In this document: in pieces, positions 1 through 27,231 of the stretch | Layout of the letters: the number at the start of each line of letters is the position of its first letter | How positions within the stretch are numbered: position 1 is the first letter of the stretch | NCBI GenBank assembly: GCA_003116975.1 | Contig: BGKB01000007.1 | Span: 186,001 to 250,000, forward strand | DNA length: 64,000 nt | Direction: 5' to 3' | Source: Aurantiochytrium sp. KH105 | Taxonomy: Eukaryota > Sar > Bigyra > Thraustochytrida > Thraustochytriidae | Made by a program: the position numbers and the translations under genes | The notes under the pieces: generated by a model | The model's database searches: none | Seen by the model: the letters and a program-made list of their open reading frames with translations, nothing else | Told to the model about the DNA's origin: nothing

Positions 1-412
1 CCTGCATCAGGTCACGCTTGACGTAAACCATGCGGTTCTGATGCCAGGTGCGCAGGACAGACATGGCAAAGATGGCAATCAGCTCGAGCTGACCGGACTT
101 GGCGTCCGGGTCTTTTTTCAGAGCCTTGGCGCTGTGGCCGAAAGGCCAGAGTCGCCAGAAGATTTGGGCCATCGGGTCGCCTCCGCCCTTGCCCTTCTTC
201 TTGCCTTTGCCGGACTTTGCAGGAGCTTCGCCCCCGTTGGCGGCTGCGGCGGCGGCCTCCTTGGCCGCGCGCGCCTTCTTGCGCGCTGCATCCTGCTGCT
301 GCTTGTAGGCCACGAGGCCGCCTGCGAGCGCGGCCACGAGCGCCGCGCGTCGCAGGTTGGTCTGCGTCAGGACCGCCGCCGCGGTGCTCGTGGTGCTGGC
401 GCTGCTGCTCAT
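1..412 (-). CDS. Peroxisomal ABC half-transporter (ABCD/PMP70-like), N-terminal part, partial
   Basis: The gene reads leftward from an ATG at 412 and runs off the left edge, leaving 137 codons. The first 40 residues hold a hydrophobic stretch followed by a lysine/alanine-rich linker. A segment then reads FWRLWPF...LELIAIFAMSVLRTW. In the ABCD family (PMP70, ALDP) the equivalent region is the start of the first membrane domain, with an F-x-RL motif, LxLIA and a SRTxxS/D motif. Such half-transporters dimerise in the peroxisomal membrane and import very-long-chain or branched acyl-CoA. The ATP-binding cassette lies outside the window, so the call rests on this short N-terminal resemblance only. 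Confidence 0.55.
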   Translation of the reverse strand, partial: MSSSASTTSTAAAVLTQTNLRRAALVAALAGGLVAYKQQQDAARKKARAAKEAAAAAANGGEAPAKSGKGKKKGKGGGDPMAQIFWRLWPFGHSAKALKKDPDAKSGQLELIAIFAMSVLRTWHQNRMVYVKRDLMQ

Positions 413-967
413 GGTCTCTCTCTACGTGCTTGCTTGCCTCGAGTCTCTGCCGCGCCCGCTCGCGCGTCGCCTCCTGCGAGTCTGCGCCGACGGACCGCGC
501 TCGCTCGCTCGCTCGCTCGCTCGCTCACCCGCCTGCCGGCGAGGGGGCGACTGTCGCGGGCGGACTTGCCCGGCGAGGGCGGGCGCTCCAGCCGCTGCCG
601 CTCGCAGAGCGGACCGGGCTTTCCTGCACTGCCGCGGCGTCGGCCTCGTTGTTGGCCTACCACCAGCCTGTGCGTGCGTGCGTGTCGCCTGGACTTGCTG
701 GTGAGTCGCTGTCGCTTTAGGCCTACTTGCGGCGCTTGTCCCGGCAGCGGCGTGCAGTGAGTGACACGCTCGCTCGTCGGTCGTGTCCTAGACTCCGAGG
801 TCGAGAGATCGAGGTCGAGAGAAGGAGGGAGGCCGCGGCGACGGCGCGCGGTGGTACTTCTTTCTCTCCTCCGACTTGGACTTCCTCGTGGACGAGAAGC
901 GATGAAATGGAATGCGCAGCCAGAAGTACTCCGCTCCGTGCGTGCGCAGTGTGGAATGCGATTGATT

Positions 968-988
968 TATTGATTGATTGATTGATTG
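968..988. repeat. (ATTG)n microsatellite
   Basis: About five tandem ATTG units, directly visible. Confidence 0.85.
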
Positions 989-1159
989 ACAGCTGAGCAC
1001 GAGGTGGCCTGGTCACCAGCCTGCCTGTCTCCTAGCCTGCGCGGCTGCGGCGCGATGCACGCGCGCGATGCAATGTAATGCAATCCGATGCGATGCGATG
1101 TGGTTGATGTCTATCTATCCCAAGATCAACGCACGCACGCGTGCAGATGAACGAATGAA

Positions 1160-1188
1160 TGAACGAACGAACGAACGAACGAACGAAC
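1160..1188. repeat. (GAAC)n microsatellite
   Basis: About seven tandem GAAC units, preceded by diverged GAAT units. Confidence 0.9.
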
Positions 1189-1737
1189 TTCAACAGATGA
1201 ACGAAGGCCGACCTTCAACTTGAGAAAGCTTGCTAAGCTGCGCGCGGCGGCTTGTGGGTCTGTTGCTCCCAGGTGCTGGGTGGCTTGGGTGGGAGGTGAG
1301 GTGAGGCGAGCCGCGCCGAGTCGAGTCGAGCCGACCGAGCTGTCCCGTGGCCTCCTCACAAAGTCGCCACCTTGGGCGCCCCCTCGTCGGCGCAGTGCGT
1401 GCGGCGGAGAGCCTTGCGACTCTCGCCTGCCGCGGCTTCGCTTCGCGCCGTCGCGCGCGTCCCAGGCTCGCTCGAGTCTGCGCCCGATCGGGTCTGGCTG
1501 GGTCCGGGATCTCTCGAATGAATTCAAATTCAAATGCAAATTTCAAATTTCACGCGGGTTTGCGCACGAATTTCACACATCCGCCCGTCCAAACCAGGTT
1601 TGCTTTGCTCGGCGCGAAGTGGGGGACGAGGAGGAAGGAAGGAGCCCACCTCTCGCCCGGAGGAAGCTGCGACGTGCTCACAGCGGCCCGTATGCTGATG
1701 CCCCCGATCGATCGCAGTCGAATGTCGAATGTTCAAC

Positions 1738-1769
1738 CGATCGATCGATCGATCGATCGATCGATCGAC
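1738..1769. repeat. (CGAT)n microsatellite
   Basis: Eight tandem self-complementary CGAT units. A second, imperfect CGAT run occurs at 1932-1959. Confidence 0.9.
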
Positions 1770-2988
1770 GGACGATCATTCGTGAAATGAATGCATTCGA
1801 ATCCAAGCAACTTCGAAGCACCGCCTCCTCCGCCTGCCGGCGGCTCGCTCGGCCGGCGGGGAAAACCCTAACGCAGCAGACGGACTCGGGTCGCGCGAGA
1901 GGTCGCGTCGCCCCGGTCGGCCAATGAGTCCATCGATCGATCAATCGATCGATCGATCGCGGCGAGGCGCGCAGTATGGGCTCGAAGGAATTTCGGATTT
2001 CATATCCTGTGTCGCGTACTCTTCCTCTGTGTCCCCTTCAGTCTACCCCTCCTTGCTTACGTCTCGAAAAGCTGGGGCTGGAGGAGGGTTACGGGGCGAG
2101 TTAGAGGATCGGAATGCAGTCTTTGAGCGCGGAGTAGTAATGGGTCTATCGGAGCTGGACGATCGAGCTTTAGACCTCTTTGTGGAGGCGGGGGAAAAAG
2201 ATGCGAAAGGGCCCTGGTGGTACAGGGATGAAGGGACAAAGGGCTGGCTTCGTGTCAACGGATAGGTGTAGTGGCTTGATTAGAGATGCTGGAGTTCATT
2301 TGGGTGTCGAGGCGCACTCTATCAGTCAGTCAGTTCGTCGGCGAGCCAGTCTCGACCGGTTCTGGCGAGGCGCATCGCAACTCGGATAACGAATGAAGCG
2401 GCTTCGGAGACTTCGATCCGTCTCGACCCAGCCTCAAACCTGGTCTTGTCGTCTTGGTGTCGATCCGCAACGCCCTTGCCCGCCCCCCCTTCCCTCCTTC
2501 ATCCTCCTCCCCCTCCCCCCTCGCCTCCCCCAAACCCGTGCCTCGATCCTAGACCCAAATGCTCGGGGCCAAGCTCCGCAAATCCCGGCCTATAAGAAAA
2601 AATCGAGTCTGCTTCTGCTTTCCACATATCTTATGTACGTTCGAGAGCGTTGGCGCGCGTGCCAACGGATCGGATCAAAGACCGCAGGTGAAAGGGCCGC
2701 ACGCAAGGTCAAGTTTGCTGGCATAGAATCGTTTTCAATCGCACAGAAAACGGACCAGCTCCTTGGGAAGAATTTGTCGACTCGCGAGTCAGTCGGGAGG
2801 TGACCAAGTGGACAGTGGCTATCGAGTTGACCAAACGGCAACGGCTATCAGATGCTGCGCGTGCACAACACCAATGAGGCAAAACTTGGAAGAGAAGAGC
2901 GACAGCTCAACGTCTAGTCCGGCGGGAATTGCCAAATTAGGTTGACCAGCAGGCAGACGGACAAGCCGGCAAGCATGCACGCAAGCTA

Positions 2989-3016
2989 CAAGCAAGCAAG
3001 CAAGCAAGCAAGCAAG
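2989..3016. repeat. (AAGC)n microsatellite
   Basis: Seven tandem AAGC units, 250 bp upstream of the zinc-finger gene. Confidence 0.9.
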
Positions 3017-3266
3017 TGGCAAAATTGGAAAACAGATCTTCAACGCACGTGGCCAGTAGCATCAGCAGCAGCGGTAGCGGCAGCAGCAGGGCGCGTCGCC
3101 GAAGCAGACTCAATCGCATACGACACTCACGCCGAACCCCCCAACGCGACCGACCGCGTCGCCTTCCCTCGCGTCGCAGCCCGCTGCTCTCCATTTGATT
3201 TCTTCGTAATTGTATTGACCTTTGGCATCTAGTCTCGACGTCGTGAAAGCGCGCTCGAGAGATATC

Positions 3267-3908
3267 ATGGGTAACGGAGCGTCCGTGACCGGTGCGCCGG
3301 TGGCACAGCCCACGGCGGAAGCACTGCGCGCCAAGCTCGATGCTATCAAGTTGGAGGCCAACAAAGACACACGCGAGTTTGACACGCCGCGTGGCGTCAC
3401 TGCAAAGGCTGAGGTTGACCGTCTTCGCGCCCTGCTCAAGAATACAATCGAAGATGGTGTACATCTCGAAGAGGTTCTCAAGACTATCGAGGCCCCTCCA
3501 GCGGAGGACGACGAGGACGATGGCCCTGATGAGCGCGAGCCGTGCCCCAAATGTAACCGCAAGTTCAACCCGGATCGTATTGAAAAGCACGTTTCCGTGT
3601 GCAAGGGCGACACCAAAAAGTCTGCAGCGGACGCCAATGCCGGCGATTCTTCTTCTGACCTTGCGGCTGCCGATTCCAAGGACAGTGGCTCAGGTAGTCG
3701 TCCTGGATCCTCTTCCAAGTGGAAGGAGGACCGCGCCAAGATGAAGGAGCAGCTCAAGCGCGACCAGGAAGCCGCAAAGTCCAAGGCTTCGGAGGCTACG
3801 GACGCAGCGGACGCAGCAGGCGCAGAAGCAGCCGAGACTACCTATGAAAATGGCGCAGAGGCGCCCGCTGCCCAGGAGGGTGAGGCTGCTGCACCAGCAG
3901 CAGAGTAA
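3267..3908 (+). CDS. C2HC zinc-finger protein with predicted N-myristoylation (ZC2HC1-like)
   Basis: 213 aa, single exon. The ATG at 3267 is chosen over the in-frame ATG at 3222 because it starts MGNGAS, a G-x-x-x-S myristoylation consensus. The centre (about residues 90-112) reads CPKCNRKFNPDRIEKHVSVC, a zf-C2HC_2 finger as in ZC2HC1/FAM164 proteins (C-x2-C, then H-x3-C). A helical, charged segment precedes it, with an acidic DDEDD patch. The remainder is a low-complexity Ser/Lys/Ala/Glu-rich tail. The molecular function of the family is poorly known; several members occur in flagellated organisms. A membrane-tethered zinc-binding scaffold is inference. Confidence 0.72.
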   Translation: MGNGASVTGAPVAQPTAEALRAKLDAIKLEANKDTREFDTPRGVTAKAEVDRLRALLKNTIEDGVHLEEVLKTIEAPPAEDDEDDGPDEREPCPKCNRKFNPDRIEKHVSVCKGDTKKSAADANAGDSSSDLAAADSKDSGSGSRPGSSSKWKEDRAKMKEQLKRDQEAAKSKASEATDAADAAGAEAAETTYENGAEAPAAQEGEAAAPAAE

Positions 3909-4899
3909 GCAGCACGTATACATACATCAAATGAATTTCACAACTCTTTTTTATACCCGATTACAAATCAAGCTTGTCTGCAAGCTCAGAAGTGAGAATT
4001 TTGGAGTGGGCTAAAGGATCCTAATCAGACAACAGAGGAATCGCATCCACTTAAATTCGTAAGTATACCCAAAACACAAAGAGTTTGTCTGGGGCCTAGA
4101 ACTACATGTTAATAATTAAACCAAGGCTCTAGCCATCCTTACATTTTTACAACAACCACTTACACCTGCAGATGGCTGCACTGACGGTTTGGTTCCATGT
4201 CTCTGACATATCTATCGATGTACTCCCGGTGAGGCGAGGATGAAAGAGTGCAAACCTTTTCAATCTTTCGCCCCAGAAATAGTTTCTCAACCAGAAAGGA
4301 CAGATCCCCTCATTCCTTTTTGTCTGCCAATGCAGAACACCCCCTTCGCCGGCAATTGTCTGCCAATGCAGGACACCCTCTTCGCCGGCAATTGTCTGCC
4401 AATGCAGGACACCCTCTTCGCCGGCAATTTTTATATCGACCCCAGCAGCTGCTACTAGTGCAGAGCCCGTATGGTAGGGGTGTAGTAAAGCTCCATCTCA
4501 CAAGAGCTTGAGCCATAAAAAAAAAATCGGAAAAATTAAAAAGGTGTGTGTTTTCCCTCGCCTCGCGGGACATACGACATAGCAACAAGGGATTAGGAGG
4601 GTCATTGAGGAACTTCGGCAAAACTCTCTTAAATGTTTACCCGAACGGACCCCGACGCCGTCGCGCCGGGCCCAAGCAGAACGTCAAGCTCGCTCTTGAC
4701 GTGGACCGCCCGGCCGGCCGACTTGGGGCCGCGAGGTCCGTGCGCGAGCTCTCGCGAGGCACCGGCCACCAAGTAGCCGCGCGCTCGCGCCACGGCCGCT
4801 TCCTTTACTTCCTTCAGAGCGTGACTGGGCCGTCAACGAGGTGTGCGGCGGCACGTGCAGTCAAGTCAGTCAATCAGTCGCTCGTTGGGGCCTTCAACA
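3909..4899. other. Intergenic region with a 36-bp tandem repeat
   Basis: This is the 3' flank of the zinc-finger gene and the 5' flank of the membrane-protein gene. It is AT-richer than the genes up to about 4550. It contains the three-copy 36-bp repeat and an A-rich run at 4518-4527. No gene is supported. Confidence 0.6.
4321..4428. repeat. 36-bp tandem repeat, three copies
   Basis: Units start at 4321, 4357 and 4393. Each begins TGTCTGCCAATGCAG and ends CTTCGCCGGCAAT. Copies 2 and 3 are identical over the unit and copy 1 differs at two positions. The period is a multiple of three, so open frames cross it on both strands. Confidence 0.92.
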
Positions 4900-11630: not shown

Positions 11631-12812
11631 TCACTTTTCGTGGTCCTTGCCCACAACTTCCGCAATCGTATGATAGCCGTCGCGCTCCATGAGAACCTTG
11701 AGTTCGCGGTTGAGACGATTCACGAGCGGGAAACCCTGATATGTGAGCGCAGTGTACAACTGAACCAGCGAGGCGCCGGCCTTTAGCTTTTCGTAAGCGT
11801 CAATGCCTGTGCTGATACCGCCAACGCCAATGATGGGAACCTTGCCCTGCGTGAGGCGGTACATGTCGCGAATAACTGCGGTGGACTTGTCCTTGACGGG
11901 CATTCCACTCAGGCCTCCAACTTCGCCACGCGCGTCGCTCACGAGAGTCTCTGGCCTGGCAATTGTGGTGTTGGATACGATGAGACCATCCACACCTCGC
12001 GAAGTGACAACATCGGCAATGTCCTGCTTGTCCTCCTCGCTGAGATCGGGCGCGATCTTGAGCACAACAGGGGTGCGGCGGCGGCCGGCGCAGACCTCAT
12101 CACGGGTCTGCACCACATTGCTAATGAGTTCGTCGAGCTCACGCTTGGCCTGCAGGTTACGCAGGCCGGGCGTGTTGGGGCTTGAGATGTTCACAACGAG
12201 ATAGTCTGCCATGGTGGCAAACTCGCGCACACCCTTGCCGTAGTCCTCAATGGCGCTCGGGGAGGTCTTGTTCTTGCCCAGATTGATGCCCAGCACGCAG
12301 GGCGTGCGCGATGCGTCAGACAAGTACGCCTCAAGGTTGGCCTTGACGGCAGCGTGTCCGTCGCTGTTAAAGCCGTAGCGATTGATGACAGCCTGGTCCT
12401 GCGGCAAGCGAAAGACGCGCGGTTTCGGATTTCCTGGCTGTGGCTCTGGAGTCACGCTGCCGATTTCGACAAAGCCAAATCCAGTGCGAGCCATGCCTTC
12501 GACGCCTTCTGCGTTCTTGTCAAAGCCTGCTGCCAAGCCCACTGGATTAGCAAACTCAAGATCCCACAACGATTGCTTGAGCGCCAGGTCGAGGCCCTCA
12601 TTCTTGGTGGGTCGCGGAATCAGCTTGTACTTGGCGGCCAATACGCCCAGTCGGTGCGCCTGCTCTCCGTCCGTGAACGTGTGCACCATGGGCATGATGA
12701 CCTGGTTGAAGACGCGCTCGTCCTGGGTCCAGTAGCCGTAGCCGACGGCGCACCCGATGCCCGCCCAGCCGCCTAGCAGCGCGTTCCGCGCGAACCTCAT
12801 CGTGCCGGCCAT
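11631..12812 (-). CDS. Dihydroorotate dehydrogenase, class 2 (quinone-dependent, mitochondrial)
   Basis: 393 aa, single exon. The ATG at 12812 is used because upstream codons to 13034 encode low-complexity sequence and overlap the repeat array. The N-terminus (MRFARNALLGGWAGIGCAVGY) combines a presequence and a membrane helix, as in class 2 enzymes of the inner mitochondrial membrane. The FMN barrel shows FANPVGLAAGFDKNAEG, FVEIGSVTPEPQPGNPKPR, NRYGFNSDG, the catalytic-serine loop VNISSPNTPGLR, and IIGVGGISTG. It oxidises dihydroorotate to orotate in pyrimidine synthesis, passing electrons to ubiquinone. Length matches the family. Confidence 0.95.
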   Translation of the reverse strand: MAGTMRFARNALLGGWAGIGCAVGYGYWTQDERVFNQVIMPMVHTFTDGEQAHRLGVLAAKYKLIPRPTKNEGLDLALKQSLWDLEFANPVGLAAGFDKNAEGVEGMARTGFGFVEIGSVTPEPQPGNPKPRVFRLPQDQAVINRYGFNSDGHAAVKANLEAYLSDASRTPCVLGINLGKNKTSPSAIEDYGKGVREFATMADYLVVNISSPNTPGLRNLQAKRELDELISNVVQTRDEVCAGRRRTPVVLKIAPDLSEEDKQDIADVVTSRGVDGLIVSNTTIARPETLVSDARGEVGGLSGMPVKDKSTAVIRDMYRLTQGKVPIIGVGGISTGIDAYEKLKAGASLVQLYTALTYQGFPLVNRLNRELKVLMERDGYHTIAEVVGKDHEK

Positions 12813-12969
12813 TCTCGCAGCCTCTTTGTCTCCAGCCCCTTTGTCCGGTCGCTCTCGCCCTGTCTGCCGCGCGCAGCCACCGGGTCCCAACCCTCCTCGC
12901 TTGGGGTCTGTCTGTCTGCGCGGCTGCTGCTGCTTGCCCGCCCGCCCGCGCCCGCCACATGCCAATTGC

Positions 12970-13155
12970 GTACCGTGACTGTACGGTAACGGAGGCCAAG
13001 TTAGCGATAACGTACCTTCGCGGTACGCAATCATAAGTAAGTTAGCAATAACGTACCTCCGCGGTACGTAATCATAAGTAAGTTAGCAATAACGTACCTA
13101 CGCGGTACGTAATTATAAGTGAGTTAGCAATAACGTACCTACGCGGTAGTAGGTA
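12970..13155. repeat. 41-bp palindrome-containing tandem array (left part)
   Basis: Four units begin at 12998, 13039, 13080 and 13121, exactly 41 bp apart. Each reads AAGTTAGCAATAACG, then a hairpin CGTACC-N5-GGTACG, then an AT-rich spacer ending CATAAGT. A related palindrome (TACCGT...ACGGTA) lies just left at 12970-12990. The same motif reappears at 17150-17256, so the array seems to flank the mobile-element island. Confidence 0.9.
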
Positions 13156-13477
13156 AACATAGCTTAGAGCCTAATAAATAAGCCGCTTTTGGGCGCACAA
13201 AGCCAAAGATTTCAAAAGTAGAGCGTAAAAGCACGCGATAAATTAGACGATTGTTTACGAGCGGGAAAATCGGGCATTCTTTTTGGGACTCAACGTCACA
13301 GTCTCCCTCCTTGCATACGACAAGACGTACGGTAGCGATGACTAAATTTTTCCTACTTTAACGACCACTCAGGCTGCCAGTGCCAGTGAAGAATCGAGCA
13401 GCACAAGCGACGACTCTGCAATCGCACAAATGAACTCGACACTGCGGTTGAGGTGCGCAGTACAGGCACGAGCACAA

Positions 13478-14799
13478 TCATTCCGCAGACCCTGCTGCCT
13501 CGGCTTGAGCCGTCATCAACATAGTCCGTTCGGCTTCGATTTTGTCCACTTCCGCCTGATACTCTTCGTCGGTGATGAAACCGCGGGAAAACCTGATTGA
13601 TGTCATATTGAACTTGTGATTGAGCCTCGAGATCGACAACTGAAAGTCTTTGTGCTCTCTCAAAACAGTCATAATGAGCCCGGACAAACGCTTCTCGCTT
13701 TCGAGCACCTCCAGTGCAGCAGCTGCGTGCATGTTTTCTCTAATCCGAGCTTTCTTCGCCGATTCGCTCGAAGGGTCACTTTTTTGTTGCCAAATGCCCG
13801 TTTTGAAGCCTGCAAGCGCGCACGCCTCTTCTTCATGTTTCCCCATGCTGACTCCGTGCTCGAGATCGAGGAGCTTTCGGCGGTTTGCTGAAGCAACCAG
13901 AACTAGAAGATGTTGATGTTGAACGCAAGATGGTAGGACTGTCTTCCTCTTCGTCCGAGTGAGAGACGTCGCTGTGGTCGTCGTCGCTGTAGTCGTCGTC
14001 GCTTCCAGGCACGACATGGCTGGGCTCGGACAATTCGGTCGACGCCGCTATGCGGGAGAGCGAATCCATCTGCTAAATGATGTCAATGACGTGGGCGAAC
14101 TTAAATTTCAGGGCAGCAGATTCTTTTGCGCTCAGGAAATTTGCGTCCTTACCAGTTTGGGCACGGACCTCTTCAAAGTACAGCTTCTCGGCTCGCTCAA
14201 CATAGTCTGATTCAGACCAGCCGCTGCCCCTCGTCGCTTTGCGAGCCTGCAACTTGCAGAATATGTATCGCTTGCACTCCCGCTCGATAATCTGCACGCG
14301 ATTCTTTAGTGCAATCGGCGTGCGGGAAACTGGGGAACGGGACGCCTCATTTTTTTCGCGCCATGAGCTCCAGCATCTTGGCCTGCACGGAGTTCCAGAA
14401 GTCCTCCGCCCTCTGGTTCGTTCCACGGATACTGTCCTCTGTGGTATTCACGTATGCAGAGATGAGACATTCATCTTCAGCCTTCGTGTACGAGTAGTCG
14501 CTGCCGCCACGAGAGGCGCTTCGAGGGTTGCCGCTGCCGCCTCGAGAGGTGCTTCGAAGGGTGTCGCTGCTGCGAGGCTTGTGGGAAGGATCTTGATCGT
14601 TTCCGATGTCTATGCATGGAGGATACGCACCAGAGCGATCGTTCGCTCCCGCTACCTCGTTGCCGCCACATTCACCAAGCTCACCTCTCTCTTTGCACGC
14701 GTTCGGCTCCTCACGAGATAAATCGTCGACTAGACTAGTCGCAAACTCATTGCAGATCGCGGCCCCGTCGCAATCCTCTACGTCGTAGCTGCTTACCAT
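13478..14799 (-). pseudogene. Decayed Myb/SANT-like (NAM-associated type) DNA-binding protein gene
   Basis: Reading leftward from an ATG at 14799, an acidic leader leads to YTKAEDECLISAYVNT, GTNQRAEDFWNSVQ and, in the next frame, RTPIALKNRVQIIERECKRY followed by FKFAHVI. Together these match the trihelix/SANT-like domain of 'NAM-associated' proteins common in oomycetes and plants. The frame breaks at an A7 run (14351-14357 region), where the zero frame ends at TGA at 14347. It meets an in-frame TAG at 14073 and changes frame again between about 13925 and 13750, where KRAFGNKKV and KKARIRENMHAAAALEVLESEKR lie in different frames. No splice sites explain these breaks, so decay is more likely than introns. 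Confidence 0.55.
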
Positions 14800-15031
14800 T
14801 GTCGCGACAGCTACGACGACGCCACCGACCGCGTGCACTGCCTGCAGTATCTGCTTTGTCGATCGATTTGGAGCGCAGCGTTGCAATCCAGTGCACTAAC
14901 AGTAAAGAAGGATCATCGTTTCTCTTGTCGTTTGGCTAGAAAATGCTAGGGTTCTCATGAGAACGAAAGGTGCATATACCACAGATTCTCACGTCTCTAC
15001 AAAAGAAAATTGAAAGAAATTCTTATAATCT

Positions 15032-15055
15032 GAGCCATGCTGGCCAGCATGGCTC
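15032..15055. repeat. Perfect 24-bp palindrome
   Basis: GAGCCATGCTGG followed directly by its exact reverse complement, with no loop. It sits within element A just inside its right terminal repeat. A second short inverted repeat (AAGCCAAA...TTTGGCTT) follows at about 15092-15109. Confidence 0.9.
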
Positions 15056-15149
15056 TGTCGGTAAAAACCTTTTTAAGAGTCATCTTTCAAGAAGCCAAAT
15101 TTTTGGCTTGTGGCGCCAAAAAGCGGCTTATTGCGATTGCTCTAACTTA

Positions 15150-17138
15150 CAGTCAACGAGACCATAAATCGGTAATTATAAAGGCAATGGACGGAGCTGC
15201 ACAGGGCCGGGGGAAGGGGCGTTGTTGGCGGGCCTCTGTGCTGATAGTCGAGCCCAACTCGTATTTGGATAATAGTTGATTGTAACCATTCTTATTGTTT
15301 TTACTATATAACCTCTAGGGTCGACCATCTGAAATTGTTAGGACAGCTTCGAGCTGCTTTTCGAGTTCATCAACGTCGTATTCTTCTTCAAAAAGGTCAT
15401 CATCATCACCACTATCATCGCTGTCAGTTTCAACACCATCTTCAATCGAGGATTCACTACGAAACTCCTCTATGACACGATCACGTGAGACGATAATCCG
15501 CTTCACCAAGTCTCGACCAGAGGGTTGCTCGAGTTTGATGAACTCGGCATCGAGTCTCTGCTTCACATCTTGGAGAGTGGTGTCCTTCGTGTATTGCCTT
15601 GCAATATTTCCTTTCACGTAAGCCCAAATCAGTTCGATGGGCTGCAGATCCGAGTAGTGAGGTGGTGTGAAGAGGACGCGATGCCCTGCCCTCTGTGCTG
15701 CCTCGATCACTTCCGGCAGCACCTTCTCCTTGATCCAGTTCTTCAGCAGAACTTTCAGCTGCGCAACTGTGCTCGTTGCGTCGTGCGGTATCTGATATTG
15801 ATAGAGCGCTGCAATAACCTCCCGTTTCTTTAGCTTCGCGACGTCGGGTGCGGTTGGCGGCAGCGTCTTGTGGTAGCTCGCATTGTCCATTATGATCAGG
15901 GACGGCTCATGAAGGTTAGGTAGGAGCTGCGTCCGCCACCACAATGCAAAATTAGTCCCGTTGAAGTTCTTGTGGTAGTCTCCTTTGCTCGCGTCAGCTG
16001 CTTGCGGACAAAACGTCCAAACAGAGCCTGGCACGAGGCCAGCTTCACGATCTGGGTATTTTGGACTCGAATTCTGAATGGCAGCCAAAATACAATACCT
16101 ACGTCCCTTGTGTTGAACGCGCGTCGTTGTGTCTTCCGCGTCCATTGGATCAAATAGACTTTTGTCAAACCTATGGTAGTGTTGATGCACGTATGACTCA
16201 TCAAGATAGACCTCCCTTAGCTGCAACTCAGGCGGAAGGGATCGATTCTGTAAGAGTCTGACGATGTAATCGTCGCGCAGAGCAATATGTTCGACCTTCA
16301 GCGAAACCTTTCCCGGACGCTTCCCACGGCAGAAGCCCATCGCGACCAGATAGGACTGTGTGGCGCGAAGAGCAGCACTGTAGTCTTTGGCGTCTATCAC
16401 ACCGCCTTCGTCATGGATAATCGAAAGCACCCCAGTCTCTACCAGGTAGTCTGTGATGTGTCTGGCTGACACAGCCTCATGGCGCAGCCGCCTTTCGCGT
16501 ACGAAGTCACGAATCTTGAAGAATACCTGCTTCGTCGTTGGAACACGTCTCGGCTTCGCCTCTCGATTGCCGCGATTCGAGACTGGTTGCAGACTGCGAT
16601 CGCCAGTCTCACTCGTTCGAGAGTCGGTCCAGCTCTTTATAAGAGGAGCGAGTGTAGACTTGGATATGCCCAGCATTGCGGACACGTTTGCCATCGCGTT
16701 AATCGGCCACTTGCGGCCTGTCTTTTTCTGCGAAGCCAACTGATCTTTTTGATACGCGAAATAAGCGTGTAGAGCCATGAAGCGCTCTTGAGACGTGAGC
16801 ACCGGTCGTCCACGAGCTTTTCTGATTGCCTGAAGTTCTCCTTCGCAGCCCTCGATGGTCGCCGTTACCCGGGTTTTGACGCTTTCATTTCGCGGACGCC
16901 CTTGCTCTTGAGATAGTGATGTCCGGCGACGCTTGGGGGACCCGCTCATCGTTTTAGTACACACCCCCTCTTCACCGCAAGTCCGCGTCGTGTGCTCGCT
17001 GGCGTTGGTCGTAGCCGCGCGCTTCGTCGCGATCTGCACGCCGTCGACTTTTTCCAGTTCATCTTAAAAAGCGCCGCTTCTCGCGTGGACGGAAGGAAAA
17101 ATTAGAGGCTAATTACCGATTTATGGTCTCGTTGACTG
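15150..17138. mobile_element. Element B: intact ~2.0-kb DDE transposon with 29-bp perfect terminal inverted repeats
   Basis: The left end 15150-15178 starts CAGTCAACGAGACC and ends GGTAATTA. The right end 17110-17138 is its exact reverse complement over 29 bp. Both ends are flanked by TTA (15147-15149 and 17139-17141), consistent with a 3-bp target-site duplication. One intact transposase gene fills the element. The left end abuts element A and the right flank is the palindromic array. Intact ends and frame suggest recent activity. Confidence 0.85.
15315..16949 (-). CDS. DDE transposase, IS630/Tc1-mariner-like (DDE_3 type)
   Basis: 544 aa, single exon. The first true ATG of the frame is at 16949 (the frame is open to 17039 but begins there with GTG). 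The N-terminal part has a Lys/Arg-rich leader and helix-turn-helix-like segments (FMALHAYFAYQKDQL; VSAMLGISKSTLAPLIKSW). The catalytic core shows D in VYLDESYVHQHYH, D in LIIMDNASYHK and E in PPHYSDLQPIELIWAYVKG. The second D and the E are about 84 residues apart, far more than the 34 of classical Tc1/mariner. The insert contains a helical SAP-like stretch (KKREVIAALYQYQIP...TVAQLKVLLKNW). The tail is very acidic. It cuts and joins the ends of element B. Confidence 0.88.
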   Translation of the reverse strand: MSGSPKRRRTSLSQEQGRPRNESVKTRVTATIEGCEGELQAIRKARGRPVLTSQERFMALHAYFAYQKDQLASQKKTGRKWPINAMANVSAMLGISKSTLAPLIKSWTDSRTSETGDRSLQPVSNRGNREAKPRRVPTTKQVFFKIRDFVRERRLRHEAVSARHITDYLVETGVLSIIHDEGGVIDAKDYSAALRATQSYLVAMGFCRGKRPGKVSLKVEHIALRDDYIVRLLQNRSLPPELQLREVYLDESYVHQHYHRFDKSLFDPMDAEDTTTRVQHKGRRYCILAAIQNSSPKYPDREAGLVPGSVWTFCPQAADASKGDYHKNFNGTNFALWWRTQLLPNLHEPSLIIMDNASYHKTLPPTAPDVAKLKKREVIAALYQYQIPHDATSTVAQLKVLLKNWIKEKVLPEVIEAAQRAGHRVLFTPPHYSDLQPIELIWAYVKGNIARQYTKDTTLQDVKQRLDAEFIKLEQPSGRDLVKRIIVSRDRVIEEFRSESSIEDGVETDSDDSGDDDDLFEEEYDVDELEKQLEAVLTISDGRP

Positions 17139-17149
17139 TTAGTTAGTAA

Positions 17150-17256
17150 GTAAGTTATCATAACGTACCTCAGCGGTACGTTATTGAAACAAAGTTAGCA
17201 ATACCGTATCAGAAGTGTACGGTATTACAATTACGTACCATTGAGAGGTACGGTAA
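17150..17256. repeat. Palindromic array, right part
   Basis: Three hairpin motifs follow element B. They are AACGTACC...GGTACGTT at 17162-17182, ATACCGTA...TACGGTAT at 17201-17225 and TTACGTACC...GGTACGGTAA at 17231-17256. The spacers contain TAAGTAAGTTA and AAGTTAGCAATA, as in the 41-bp units at 12998-13155. Confidence 0.85.
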
Positions 17257-17498
17257 ATTCTTACCTACTACCCGTCTCTCGTCACTCCTACTACGAGATA
17301 GGCCTAGATGCGCCATGGCATCAGCCCTGCAAAGCCCGAACCGCGAGCTCTGCAGCTGGGCGCAGCGCGAGAGGCAAGCTTGTGCTGCCGCCCCTGGCGA
17401 CAGCTTAAGCGGGAGGAGAAGCTTGCAAAGCTGGCTGACTGACTGGCTGACTGGCTGGCGGTCGAGAATACAAGCACCTCGCTTGCGACCGCGAAGAG

Positions 17499-18884
17499 AT
17501 GAGCTCCGGCGACCAAGTGGATGATGGCATCGTGGCCGCCGCTGCAGCCGCCAAGACGTACGAAGTCGAGCTGCCAGAGTGGCTGGGAGGGTCCGTGGTA
17601 GAAATTGACAGCCAGCTTGCGGATCTGTTGCTCCTTGGACTGTTTACATTTGTGCTCTTCTTCTTGACGGACCCCTTTCGCATCATTGAAAAGGTCGATG
17701 AGCGCCTTGTCAGACTGTACAAGGCGCCCGAAAAGTCTGCCGTTCAGGGCCGCAAGGTGTTTTGCATCGTGAACCCTACGAGCGGCAACAAGAATGGGAA
17801 ATGGCAGTACGCCAAGGTTGCCTTTCCTCTGCTTCGAAGTGCGGGGGCAACCGTTGACATGGTCATGACCAAGAGCACCGAACATGTAACTGAGCTCGGC
17901 GAAAGCATGGGCAAGGCGTACAAGGACGGTGACAAGGATGCCTTTCCCGATGGAGGCGTTCTTGTCATGGGCGGAGACGGGACCTTTTTCGAGGTTATCA
18001 ATGGTATCATCAGCGGTCTCACCGGCGGCTCGATGGATCTGGACAAGGACGGCGCACGCAAGGCTCTTGAGACCTTGCGCATTGCACACATCCCGGTGGG
18101 AACCTCGAACGGCATTGCACGTACTACCGAATGCGCAACTGCATACGAGGCCATTTCGCAGCTCATTGCTGGTGACGGCGAAGGCAACAATACTAGTCAT
18201 CTTGACCTGGCTGCTGTCGACCTCGAATTCGCTGAAGGCAGCAAGGAGCAAACGTCCACGAAGCGCCGCATCTACGACGTCATGTGCACGTCTGTCGGCT
18301 TCGTATGCGACTACAACGACCTTACCGAGTACCGCTGGCGCTTTCTCGGCAAGACGCTCAAGGAAACCTTGGCCCTCTTGACCCTGTTTGCTCTGCGCAG
18401 AGTGGTGAAAGCCCGTTTGCTCGTTCGCCCGTGCGAGCTCTCCAAGGAGCAGCGGCTTGAACTTGCCACCAAACATGGGTACAATGACACCGCAGAGCTC
18501 TCCGAAGCAGCAGGCCACCCTGGTTGGCTCGAGATCCCTGGTCCATTCGTCTTGATCACCTGGACGACGCTCTCCTGGATTGCAAACGACTCGTGCTTTG
18601 CGCCCGAGACTGGCTTTGGCGACGGACAGGCTACCGTCGTGGCCATGAATGCCAACAACTCTCGCTGGCAAATGATGCGCGCTGCCATGGCCTTCGAAAA
18701 GGGCGATGCGGGCAAATTGCCCTTGGTCCAAATGTATCGCGTTCGCGAGATGAAAATTTTGCCATCAACTCCACTCCCGGTGGACACGACAGGCTCCATC
18801 GTCAAGAATGTGAAGAGCATCAATGTGAAAATCCTCCCCAAGGCCGTTCAATACCTTCGCAATCCTTCACTTCCGGTGACCTAA
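17499..18884 (+). CDS. Lipid kinase of the sphingosine/diacylglycerol kinase family
   Basis: 461 aa, single exon from ATG at 17499. A membrane segment lies at about residues 40-58 (ADLLLLGLFTFVLFFL). The DAGK catalytic domain follows: FCIVNPTSGNKNGK (C1), GGVLVMGGDGTFFEVINGI (C2, ATP-binding GGDGT) and IPVGTSNGIAR (C3). Further matches include DVMCTSVGFVCDYN and the later GFGDGQATVV. These features fit sphingosine kinase and ceramide kinase relatives, which phosphorylate lipid head groups at membranes using ATP. The substrate cannot be set from sequence alone. There is no C1 or PH domain. Its start lies about 240 bp from the right end of the mobile-element island. Confidence 0.88.
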   Translation: MSSGDQVDDGIVAAAAAAKTYEVELPEWLGGSVVEIDSQLADLLLLGLFTFVLFFLTDPFRIIEKVDERLVRLYKAPEKSAVQGRKVFCIVNPTSGNKNGKWQYAKVAFPLLRSAGATVDMVMTKSTEHVTELGESMGKAYKDGDKDAFPDGGVLVMGGDGTFFEVINGIISGLTGGSMDLDKDGARKALETLRIAHIPVGTSNGIARTTECATAYEAISQLIAGDGEGNNTSHLDLAAVDLEFAEGSKEQTSTKRRIYDVMCTSVGFVCDYNDLTEYRWRFLGKTLKETLALLTLFALRRVVKARLLVRPCELSKEQRLELATKHGYNDTAELSEAAGHPGWLEIPGPFVLITWTTLSWIANDSCFAPETGFGDGQATVVAMNANNSRWQMMRAAMAFEKGDAGKLPLVQMYRVREMKILPSTPLPVDTTGSIVKNVKSINVKILPKAVQYLRNPSLPVT

Positions 18885-26714: not shown

Positions 26715-27231
26715 TCTACAAGTGATGTCTGTGGGCCGCGACTCTGGAGCAATGTCTGTGGGCTGAGTCCCAAAAGCAATGTCTGAGGGTCGAGTCCCAA
26801 AAGTAATGTATTTGGCCGAGTCCAAAAATTAATCTTCGTAACCGAGTCCAAAAATTAATGTGCGAGCCCGCCCTAATCTCCGTTCTTCACGTCAAGCAAA
26901 TTTTGTTGTTGCGTATTCTTCTGAGCACAGTGCCCTTGAGATGAAAATCCTCCATTTTCGTGAGATGTCTAGTCCTTACTCATCCTGTCCTTATCTGGGT
27001 TCGCGTTCGTTTTGCGTTCTATTTTTTGCGTTCTGTCACACCCCCCTTGTAGCTTCTCTGCGCAGTTCACGAGGAGCGAAGTCTCGACCTATACCCGTAC
27101 TTACTCGCCAGCTGTACCGAGCTATACTATACGATTGTGTCAACTTGCCACCAAGCGGGAAAAAGCCAAGCAGGCTATCCATATCCTCTTCTGCGTCTGC
27201 CGGCGAATAGAGCAGCACTGGCCGCGCGAGG
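26715..27231. other. Intergenic region with degenerate ~27-bp tandem repeat
   Basis: Directly after the CFAP52 stop come five to six diverged copies of a unit such as AATGTCTGTGGGCTGAGTCC followed by CAAAAG (about 26732-26863). The remainder is the 5' flank of the methyltransferase gene. No gene is seen. Confidence 0.6.
26732..26863. repeat. Degenerate ~27-bp tandem repeats
   Basis: Copies share ATGTCTG, GGGC/GGTC, GAGTCCCAAAAG or GAGTCCAAAAATTAAT. Divergence increases to the right. Confidence 0.75.

Follow-up and report, generated by a model that had tools for sequence, protein, structure and literature searches.

The Tc1/mariner transposons include Tc4. In the sections of the literature drawn on here, Tc4 is reported to target CTNAG and to duplicate TNA, its DDD group being discussed for ecdysozoans (PMC11071193), and Sailor (DD82E) is reported from 23 species of Chromista (Stramenopiles), with DD83E variants, a range from DD78E to DD111E, a predominantly TATA target duplication and ends that usually start with GT or CC (PMC8533490). 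Zator duplicates 3 bp (PMC10045372) and resembles ISAzo13. A TWA target is described for PIF/Harbinger elements and C/TNA/G for NuwaII (PMC4482050), and TNA is given as the classic Harbinger pattern in Ectocarpus (PMC12477816). Here, we describe a locus in which two transposons, element A (a PIF/Harbinger relative) and element B (of the IS630/Tc1-mariner group), interrupt an array of 41-bp palindromic units. The locus lies in the window, the whole stretch of 64,000 nucleotides that was analysed (C7:186001-250000, in a genome of 76 Mb and 367 contigs). Very probably, a locus-specific palindromic minisatellite between two divergent genes took two independent transposon insertions.

A split palindromic array and its allele

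The array and both elements are enclosed by a divergent gene pair, the dihydroorotate dehydrogenase (DHODH) gene on the minus strand and a diacylglycerol-kinase catalytic (DAGK) domain gene on the plus strand with its ATG at 17499. To the left of the elements, Tandem Repeats Finder (TRF) detects a period of 41 with 3.7 copies and 94% matches (12998-13148). Homology links the unit to the right (17152-17199) with the left units, at a local score of 60 vs a maximum of 44 among 2000 dinucleotide shuffles, and elements A (13167-15142) and B (15150-17138) are adjacent in between. The original prediction of a palindromic 41-bp array split by two abutting transposons is thereby confirmed. The core motif CGTACC-N5-GGTACG, allowing up to one mismatch, occurs at five places in the window, all at the array locus, where shuffles give an expectation of 0.04. 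Hairpin strength is unequal among the array units and the outer palindromes P0, P6 and P7; with each unit folded singly as a single strand, z is -1.9, -2.8 and -1.9 in the full units of the left side and -5.3 in the right unit.

The search for the 41-bp unit through the genome, which had been proposed together with the prediction, found the array at its own locus and on contig C298. A DNA search with 12900-13163 returned three matches, the locus itself and two on C298, and one with 17142-17300 returned two, the locus and C298 alone; the search tool passes over very common words, and absence of the array elsewhere is absence at that sensitivity. Exact CGTACC-N5-GGTACG occurs at 10 places (14 for the reversed control), eight of which belong to the array locus and its allele and the others to C49 and C90. 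Similarly, ACGTACC-N3-9-GGTACGT occurs at 10 places (nine for the reversed control), with six at the array locus and allele and the remaining four in two contig pairs, C4/C55 and C49/C90. The palindrome motif has no general genome-wide enrichment over reversed controls. A dispersed repeat or miniature inverted-repeat transposable element is rejected because the array was found nowhere but at one locus and its allele; a minisatellite confined to this locus and variable in length is the best explanation. As in a minisatellite (variable number tandem repeat), the units are in tandem, match at 94% and differ in number between alleles; unlike one, the full units contain a hairpin with 6- to 7-bp arms, and outer palindromes of other sequence border the tandem part.

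We also note the positions of the single ACGTACC/GGTACGT palindromes, C4:94960-94981, C55:98578-98599, C49:317229 and C90:95186. Those on C49 and C90 are solitary in GC-rich sequence, with no array in the 260 bases viewed.

Many loci of the genome are present on two contigs, as alleles would be. C298 (39 kb) aligns to window positions 11313-48221; of the seven blocks above 1.2 kb that lie outside A, six are 93-96% identical, and the last, at the contig end, is 88.6% identical. C298 is judged from this alignment to be the allelic contig. It carries P0 and five left units, followed by a 5.9-kb A-family element and then P6 and P7, and has no B. The window has three full units and one truncated unit on the left and one unit on the right. 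Of the proposed empty site joining 13163 to about 17142, the part concerning B exists as the B-less allele on C298, and the part concerning A was not seen, both haplotypes carrying an A-family element.

Elements A and B

Element A has an inverted-repeat pair of 49 nt, 78% complementary, and 32 matches in the genome, itself included. It shares homology with the element on C298 over the latter's right 1.7 kb, and an open reading frame (ORF) of the C298 element encodes a DDE_Tnp_4 transposase (Pfam, E 3e-25). Through this relative, A is assigned by homology as a PIF/Harbinger derivative, and the Tc1/mariner label used in the original prediction holds for B, within the IS630 group, and fails for A. 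A further ORF of 599 aa lies beside the transposase gene of the C298 element (L019 2161-3960, + strand) and matches no family in Pfam or NCBIfam. Both the transposase gene and a counterpart of the 599-aa ORF are missing from the window copy. No Myb/SANT domain was matched in Pfam, either by the C298 accessory ORF (E up to 5) or by the ORF pieces of the window copy (E up to 0.001).

Both ends were in hand for five of the 11 other A copies, and target duplications were read in these. Exact 3-bp duplications are present in four of these (TAA, TTA, TTA and TGA), and the fifth, on C161, has TGA on both sides only with its ends set 1-2 bases inward. An uninterrupted allele was found for all five copies tested. 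The TGA duplication agrees with a TNA target, not with TWA.

The A part shared by the window and C298 is 93.1% identical without gaps (1599/1717; 89% in the BLAST alignment), and the flanking non-coding DNA compared in the same way is 95.2% (138/145) and 92.4% (206/223) identical; the value for DHODH is 98.6%. Among the other A copies, matches longer than 300 bases are 78-85% identical, shorter ones running higher. Element A is considered old because its shared part has diverged about as far as the flanking non-coding DNA. Since the alleles resemble each other in A as they do in the flanks, and the other copies over 300 bases reach only 78-85%, the likeliest and simplest account of A in both haplotypes would be one insertion predating their split. 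The left parts of the element differ, with about 0.2 kb in the window and 4.1 kb, including the transposase gene, on C298. The first 0.2 kb of the window copy is 78-80% like other family copies. Positions 389-4132 of the 4139-base C298 block are 91-94% like C7:114043-118585, a relative for which no clear terminal repeats were found in C7:112-120 kb. These comparisons suggest that the left part of one allele's element was replaced from another copy, in either direction; for the minus-strand copies on C119, C62, C33, C200 and C17, the mid-element pairs in the left-part comparison are incomplete.

Element B is represented by eight full-length copies, the window's included, with an open 574-aa frame; they are listed as 100% identical (rounded), and the copy on C2 scores slightly lower. 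A TA duplication at 15143-15144 had been considered as the target of B and was dropped upon alignment of the other copies. Exact 3-bp duplications, all TNA, flank 14 of the 15 copies with both ends read. The 15th, on C121, has TCA/CCA, and its partner on C20, in the same flanks, has TCA/TCA; these two copies are 92-93% identical. On C183 the flanks are a GTGA repeat, which makes the duplication less certain there. The context is CTNAG in six of the 14 exact-TNA copies, and the following base is G in 11. Five further copies were read at one end, and about five old or broken ones stand outside the end analysis. Searching the genome with the joined flanks of 10 of the 14 other two-ended insertions identified, for nine, an uninterrupted allele in which one trinucleotide occupies the site (TCA in one case, vs TTA at the filled site); the tenth, C38, gave a one-sided match only. 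Given the near-identical copies, the TNA duplications and the empty alleles, B is a young, recently mobile element and its copy at this locus a recent insertion.

An internally deleted B of about 0.97 kb is present at C1:361642-362608 and C11:199057-200022, unrelated sites each with its own TNA. The identical deleted form at two sites implies that a shortened, non-autonomous derivative has moved too.

Table 1. Features of the locus (positions in the window; a dot marks a feature without strand).
Feature	Position	Strand	Basis and remarks
DHODH gene	11631..12812	-	ORF and Pfam DHO_dh, E 1.7e-92; left neighbour, reads away from array; ATG at 12812 chosen within a longer ORF
Outer left palindrome P0	12963..12991	.	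One-mismatch motif match at 12969-12985; fold z -1.7; kept on C298
41-bp palindromic array, units U1-U4 (three full, one truncated)	12998..13148	.	TRF and repeat search
Element A, transposase-less PIF/Harbinger relative	13167..15142	-	Inverted-repeat pair; homology to C298 element
ORFs in A	13478-14017, 14073-14426, 14347-14886		Look like broken accessory-gene remains; Myb-like by eye only
TTA target duplication, left of B	15147..15149	.
Element B, IS630/Tc1-mariner-group transposon, 1989 bp	15150..17138	-	Ends set from other copies
Terminal inverted repeats of B, 29 bp	15150-15178 / 17110-17138		Perfect
B transposase, open frame of 574 aa, DD83E	15315..17039	-	Pfam DDE_3 and NCBIfam IS630
TTA target duplication, right of B	17139..17141	.
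Resumed array unit, right of transposons	17142..17199 (aligned part 17152-17199)	.	Alignment and fold score
Outer right palindrome P6 (AATACCGTA/TACGGTATT)	17199..17227	.	Fold z -5.0; on C298 too
Outer right palindrome P7	17232..17258	.	Fold z -3.3; on C298 too
DAGK-domain gene	17499..18884	+	ORF and Pfam DAGK_cat, E 6e-17; right neighbour, reads away from array

Two observations lie outside the locus. A second tandem array occupies window positions 26725-26861, with about four copies of 26-27-bp units that are 77-78% alike. Matches to the PfaA model (polyunsaturated fatty acid synthase) were found in the contig pairs C72/C155 and C290/C61, the best at 930 bits, below the cut-off of 1010; the model also gives matches in 11 of the 14 control genomes, again without passing the cut-off, and the paired matches are a weak hint at a thraustochytrid-like host.

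History of the locus and alternative explanations

The simplest reading of the original prediction, a pre-existing array that received two insertions, is supported by the restriction of the array to this locus and its allele, by the palindromes on either side of the A-family element in the B-less allele, and by the bare A and B borders elsewhere. According to the proposed history, the PIF/Harbinger element A would have entered the spacer between two palindromes before the haplotypes separated. The alleles would then have diverged separately, through gain or loss of array units and a change in the left part of the element; array growth may have proceeded by slippage or unequal exchange at the hairpin-forming repeats. 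Much later, and in the window haplotype only, an active B would have inserted at TTA, at a target site beginning 4 bp from the right end of A, generating the 3-bp duplication. The order of these events is a reconstruction and should be read as probable.

Several observations weigh against this history. The flanks of A at the window locus, TTA at 13164-13166 and TAA at 15143-15145, fall short of an exact duplication, and an A-empty allele was seen in neither of the two haplotypes examined. Because C298 lacks the right-hand unit, its B-less allele does not reproduce the pre-insertion site exactly. The right tip of the C298 element appears altered or missing, the element begins 1.9 kb from the contig end with one N inside, and an assembly error at this element is conceivable. 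A short A-family fragment, C7:2-89, matches the window copy at 93% over 88 bases, equal to the allele in that part. Folding of the single left units is just moderately better than that of shuffles, and the likeness of P0 and P6 to the 41-bp unit lacks significance (equalled by 206 and 284 of 2000 shuffles, respectively); for P7 the likeness is suggestive (8/2000 shuffles as good).

The palindromes could instead be regulatory sites under selection, for example a cluster of binding sites for a dimeric factor in a bidirectional promoter, now split by the transposons between both genes. The palindromes sit in the spacer of a divergent gene pair, with the DHODH ATG about 150 bp and the DAGK-domain ATG about 240 bp away, a location in keeping with such a role; so is the maintenance of palindromy with differing arms, ACGTACC/GGTACGT in the units and AATACCGTA/TACGGTATT in P6. 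However, the motif is not enriched in the genome over reversed controls, six of the 10 places with the longer-armed motif are the array locus and its allele, and the unit number varies between alleles. Template-switch correction of imperfect palindromes could likewise preserve symmetry, and the palindromy of P6 could be explained by either selection or such correction. A promoter role of the array is possible, and we regard regulatory sites under selection as a rather unlikely explanation of the locus; the array probably has no essential function.

Insertion of A independently on each haplotype, at a hot spot, is less probable again. It would accommodate the different left parts (0.2 vs 4.1 kb) and the different numbers of flanking units, yet the left junctions of both alleles align, and the shared 1.7 kb is as similar between them as the flanking non-coding DNA and more so than the other copies over 300 bases.

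Least of all can the array be part of a larger compound element carrying A and B, a reading suggested by the palindromes that flank the A-B pair left and right and made highly improbable by the confinement of the array to one locus and its allele, by the array without B on C298, by the separate 3-bp duplications that the A and B families make elsewhere, and by the borders of other copies. Palindromes with 7-bp arms and a loop of 3-9 bases are missing within 100 bp of all 16 borders checked in 11 other A copies. Among the 28 borders of 14 other B copies, viewed over 60 bp each, four have such a palindrome (C38 and C121 one each and C20 two) and none has one of the CGTACC type, and the genome-wide CGTACC-N5-GGTACG list, which also excludes shorter-armed copies with a 5-base loop, has no place at B borders. 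The array, which would have to stand at the ends of every copy if it belonged to the elements, was thus seen at none of the A or B borders checked. Together with the homologous units on both sides, the bare borders of the other A copies suggest that the array is older than A.

Given the proposed two insertions into a pre-existing array, the events at the locus can be placed in relative order from both alleles: one gene spacer contains a Harbinger that is old and shared and an IS630-group element that is young and confined to a single allele. The array itself is important only if its palindromes act in both putative promoters. The history is mostly ordinary; the unexpected detail is the 3-bp TNA duplication of B in place of the usual 2-bp TA. 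Through its many near-identical copies and empty alleles, B provides a clean case in which to look for the feature of a transposase that determines whether its target is 2, 3 or 4 bp long.

Comparison with described transposons

The A family resembles the PIF/Harbinger elements (PHIS superfamily; NuwaII-type and stramenopile Harbingers) in the DDE_Tnp_4 transposase of the C298 allele, and those with a TNA target in its 3-bp TNA duplications and empty alleles (five copies). It differs in the additional unmatched ORF of the C298 copy, in the accessory ORF without a Myb domain match, and in the lack of a transposase in the window copy.

The B transposase matches Pfam DDE_3 with E 1.6e-9 and 38.2 bits (cut-off 28.6), the best stretch being residues 442-485, or 44 of 146 profile positions, and NCBIfam IS630 with E 1.4e-11 and 44 bits, below the curated cut-off of 100 bits. 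The catalytic triad is predicted as D280, D385 and E469, with 83 residues from the second D to the E; both D residues were chosen by eye from motifs. Searching PDB by sequence brought up no match at E values up to 1, and the structure prediction, with a mean predicted local distance difference test (pLDDT) score of 37, was not used. No prokaryotic relatives were found in a contig scan with two short peptides from three near-identical sequences, which is a weak scan.

The TA target duplication expected of the IS630-Tc1-mariner group does not occur at B, and an ordinary TA-inserting Tc1/mariner is ruled out by the TNA duplications and the single TNA in empty alleles. B shares its 3-bp duplication with Zator as described. 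Models for ISAzo13 are contained in the Pfam and NCBIfam libraries, and the B transposase had DDE_3 as its sole match in Pfam (E up to 5) and IS630 as its sole match in NCBIfam (E up to 1), giving no ISAzo13-type match and excluding Zator. Outside Tc4-type elements, no DDE IS630-group element with TNA was found in the portions of the open-licence PMC literature covered, a scope that lies apart from Repbase and Dfam.

B resembles Tc4, as far as the cited account goes, in its exact TNA duplications (14/15); the wider CTNAG context is present in six of those 14. It differs in being DDE, with E469 as the third residue, in its 83-residue spacing and in its protist-like genome. With Sailor it has in common the DD83E spacing, the length of 574 aa and an IS630/DDE_3-type catalytic end. 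In contrast to Sailor, compared by description only, it duplicates TNA rather than TATA and starts with CAGTCAACG. For the present, B is filed as an IS630-group element with an atypical target, rather than under Sailor or Tc4. Tentatively, and with somewhat less than even confidence, we suggest that B represents an undescribed IS630-Tc1-mariner lineage in a stramenopile-like protist, which combines a Sailor-like DD83E with a TNA target like that of Tc4 and Harbinger and whose target, once TA (or TATA), would have become TNA in a change separate from that of the DDD Tc4 elements.

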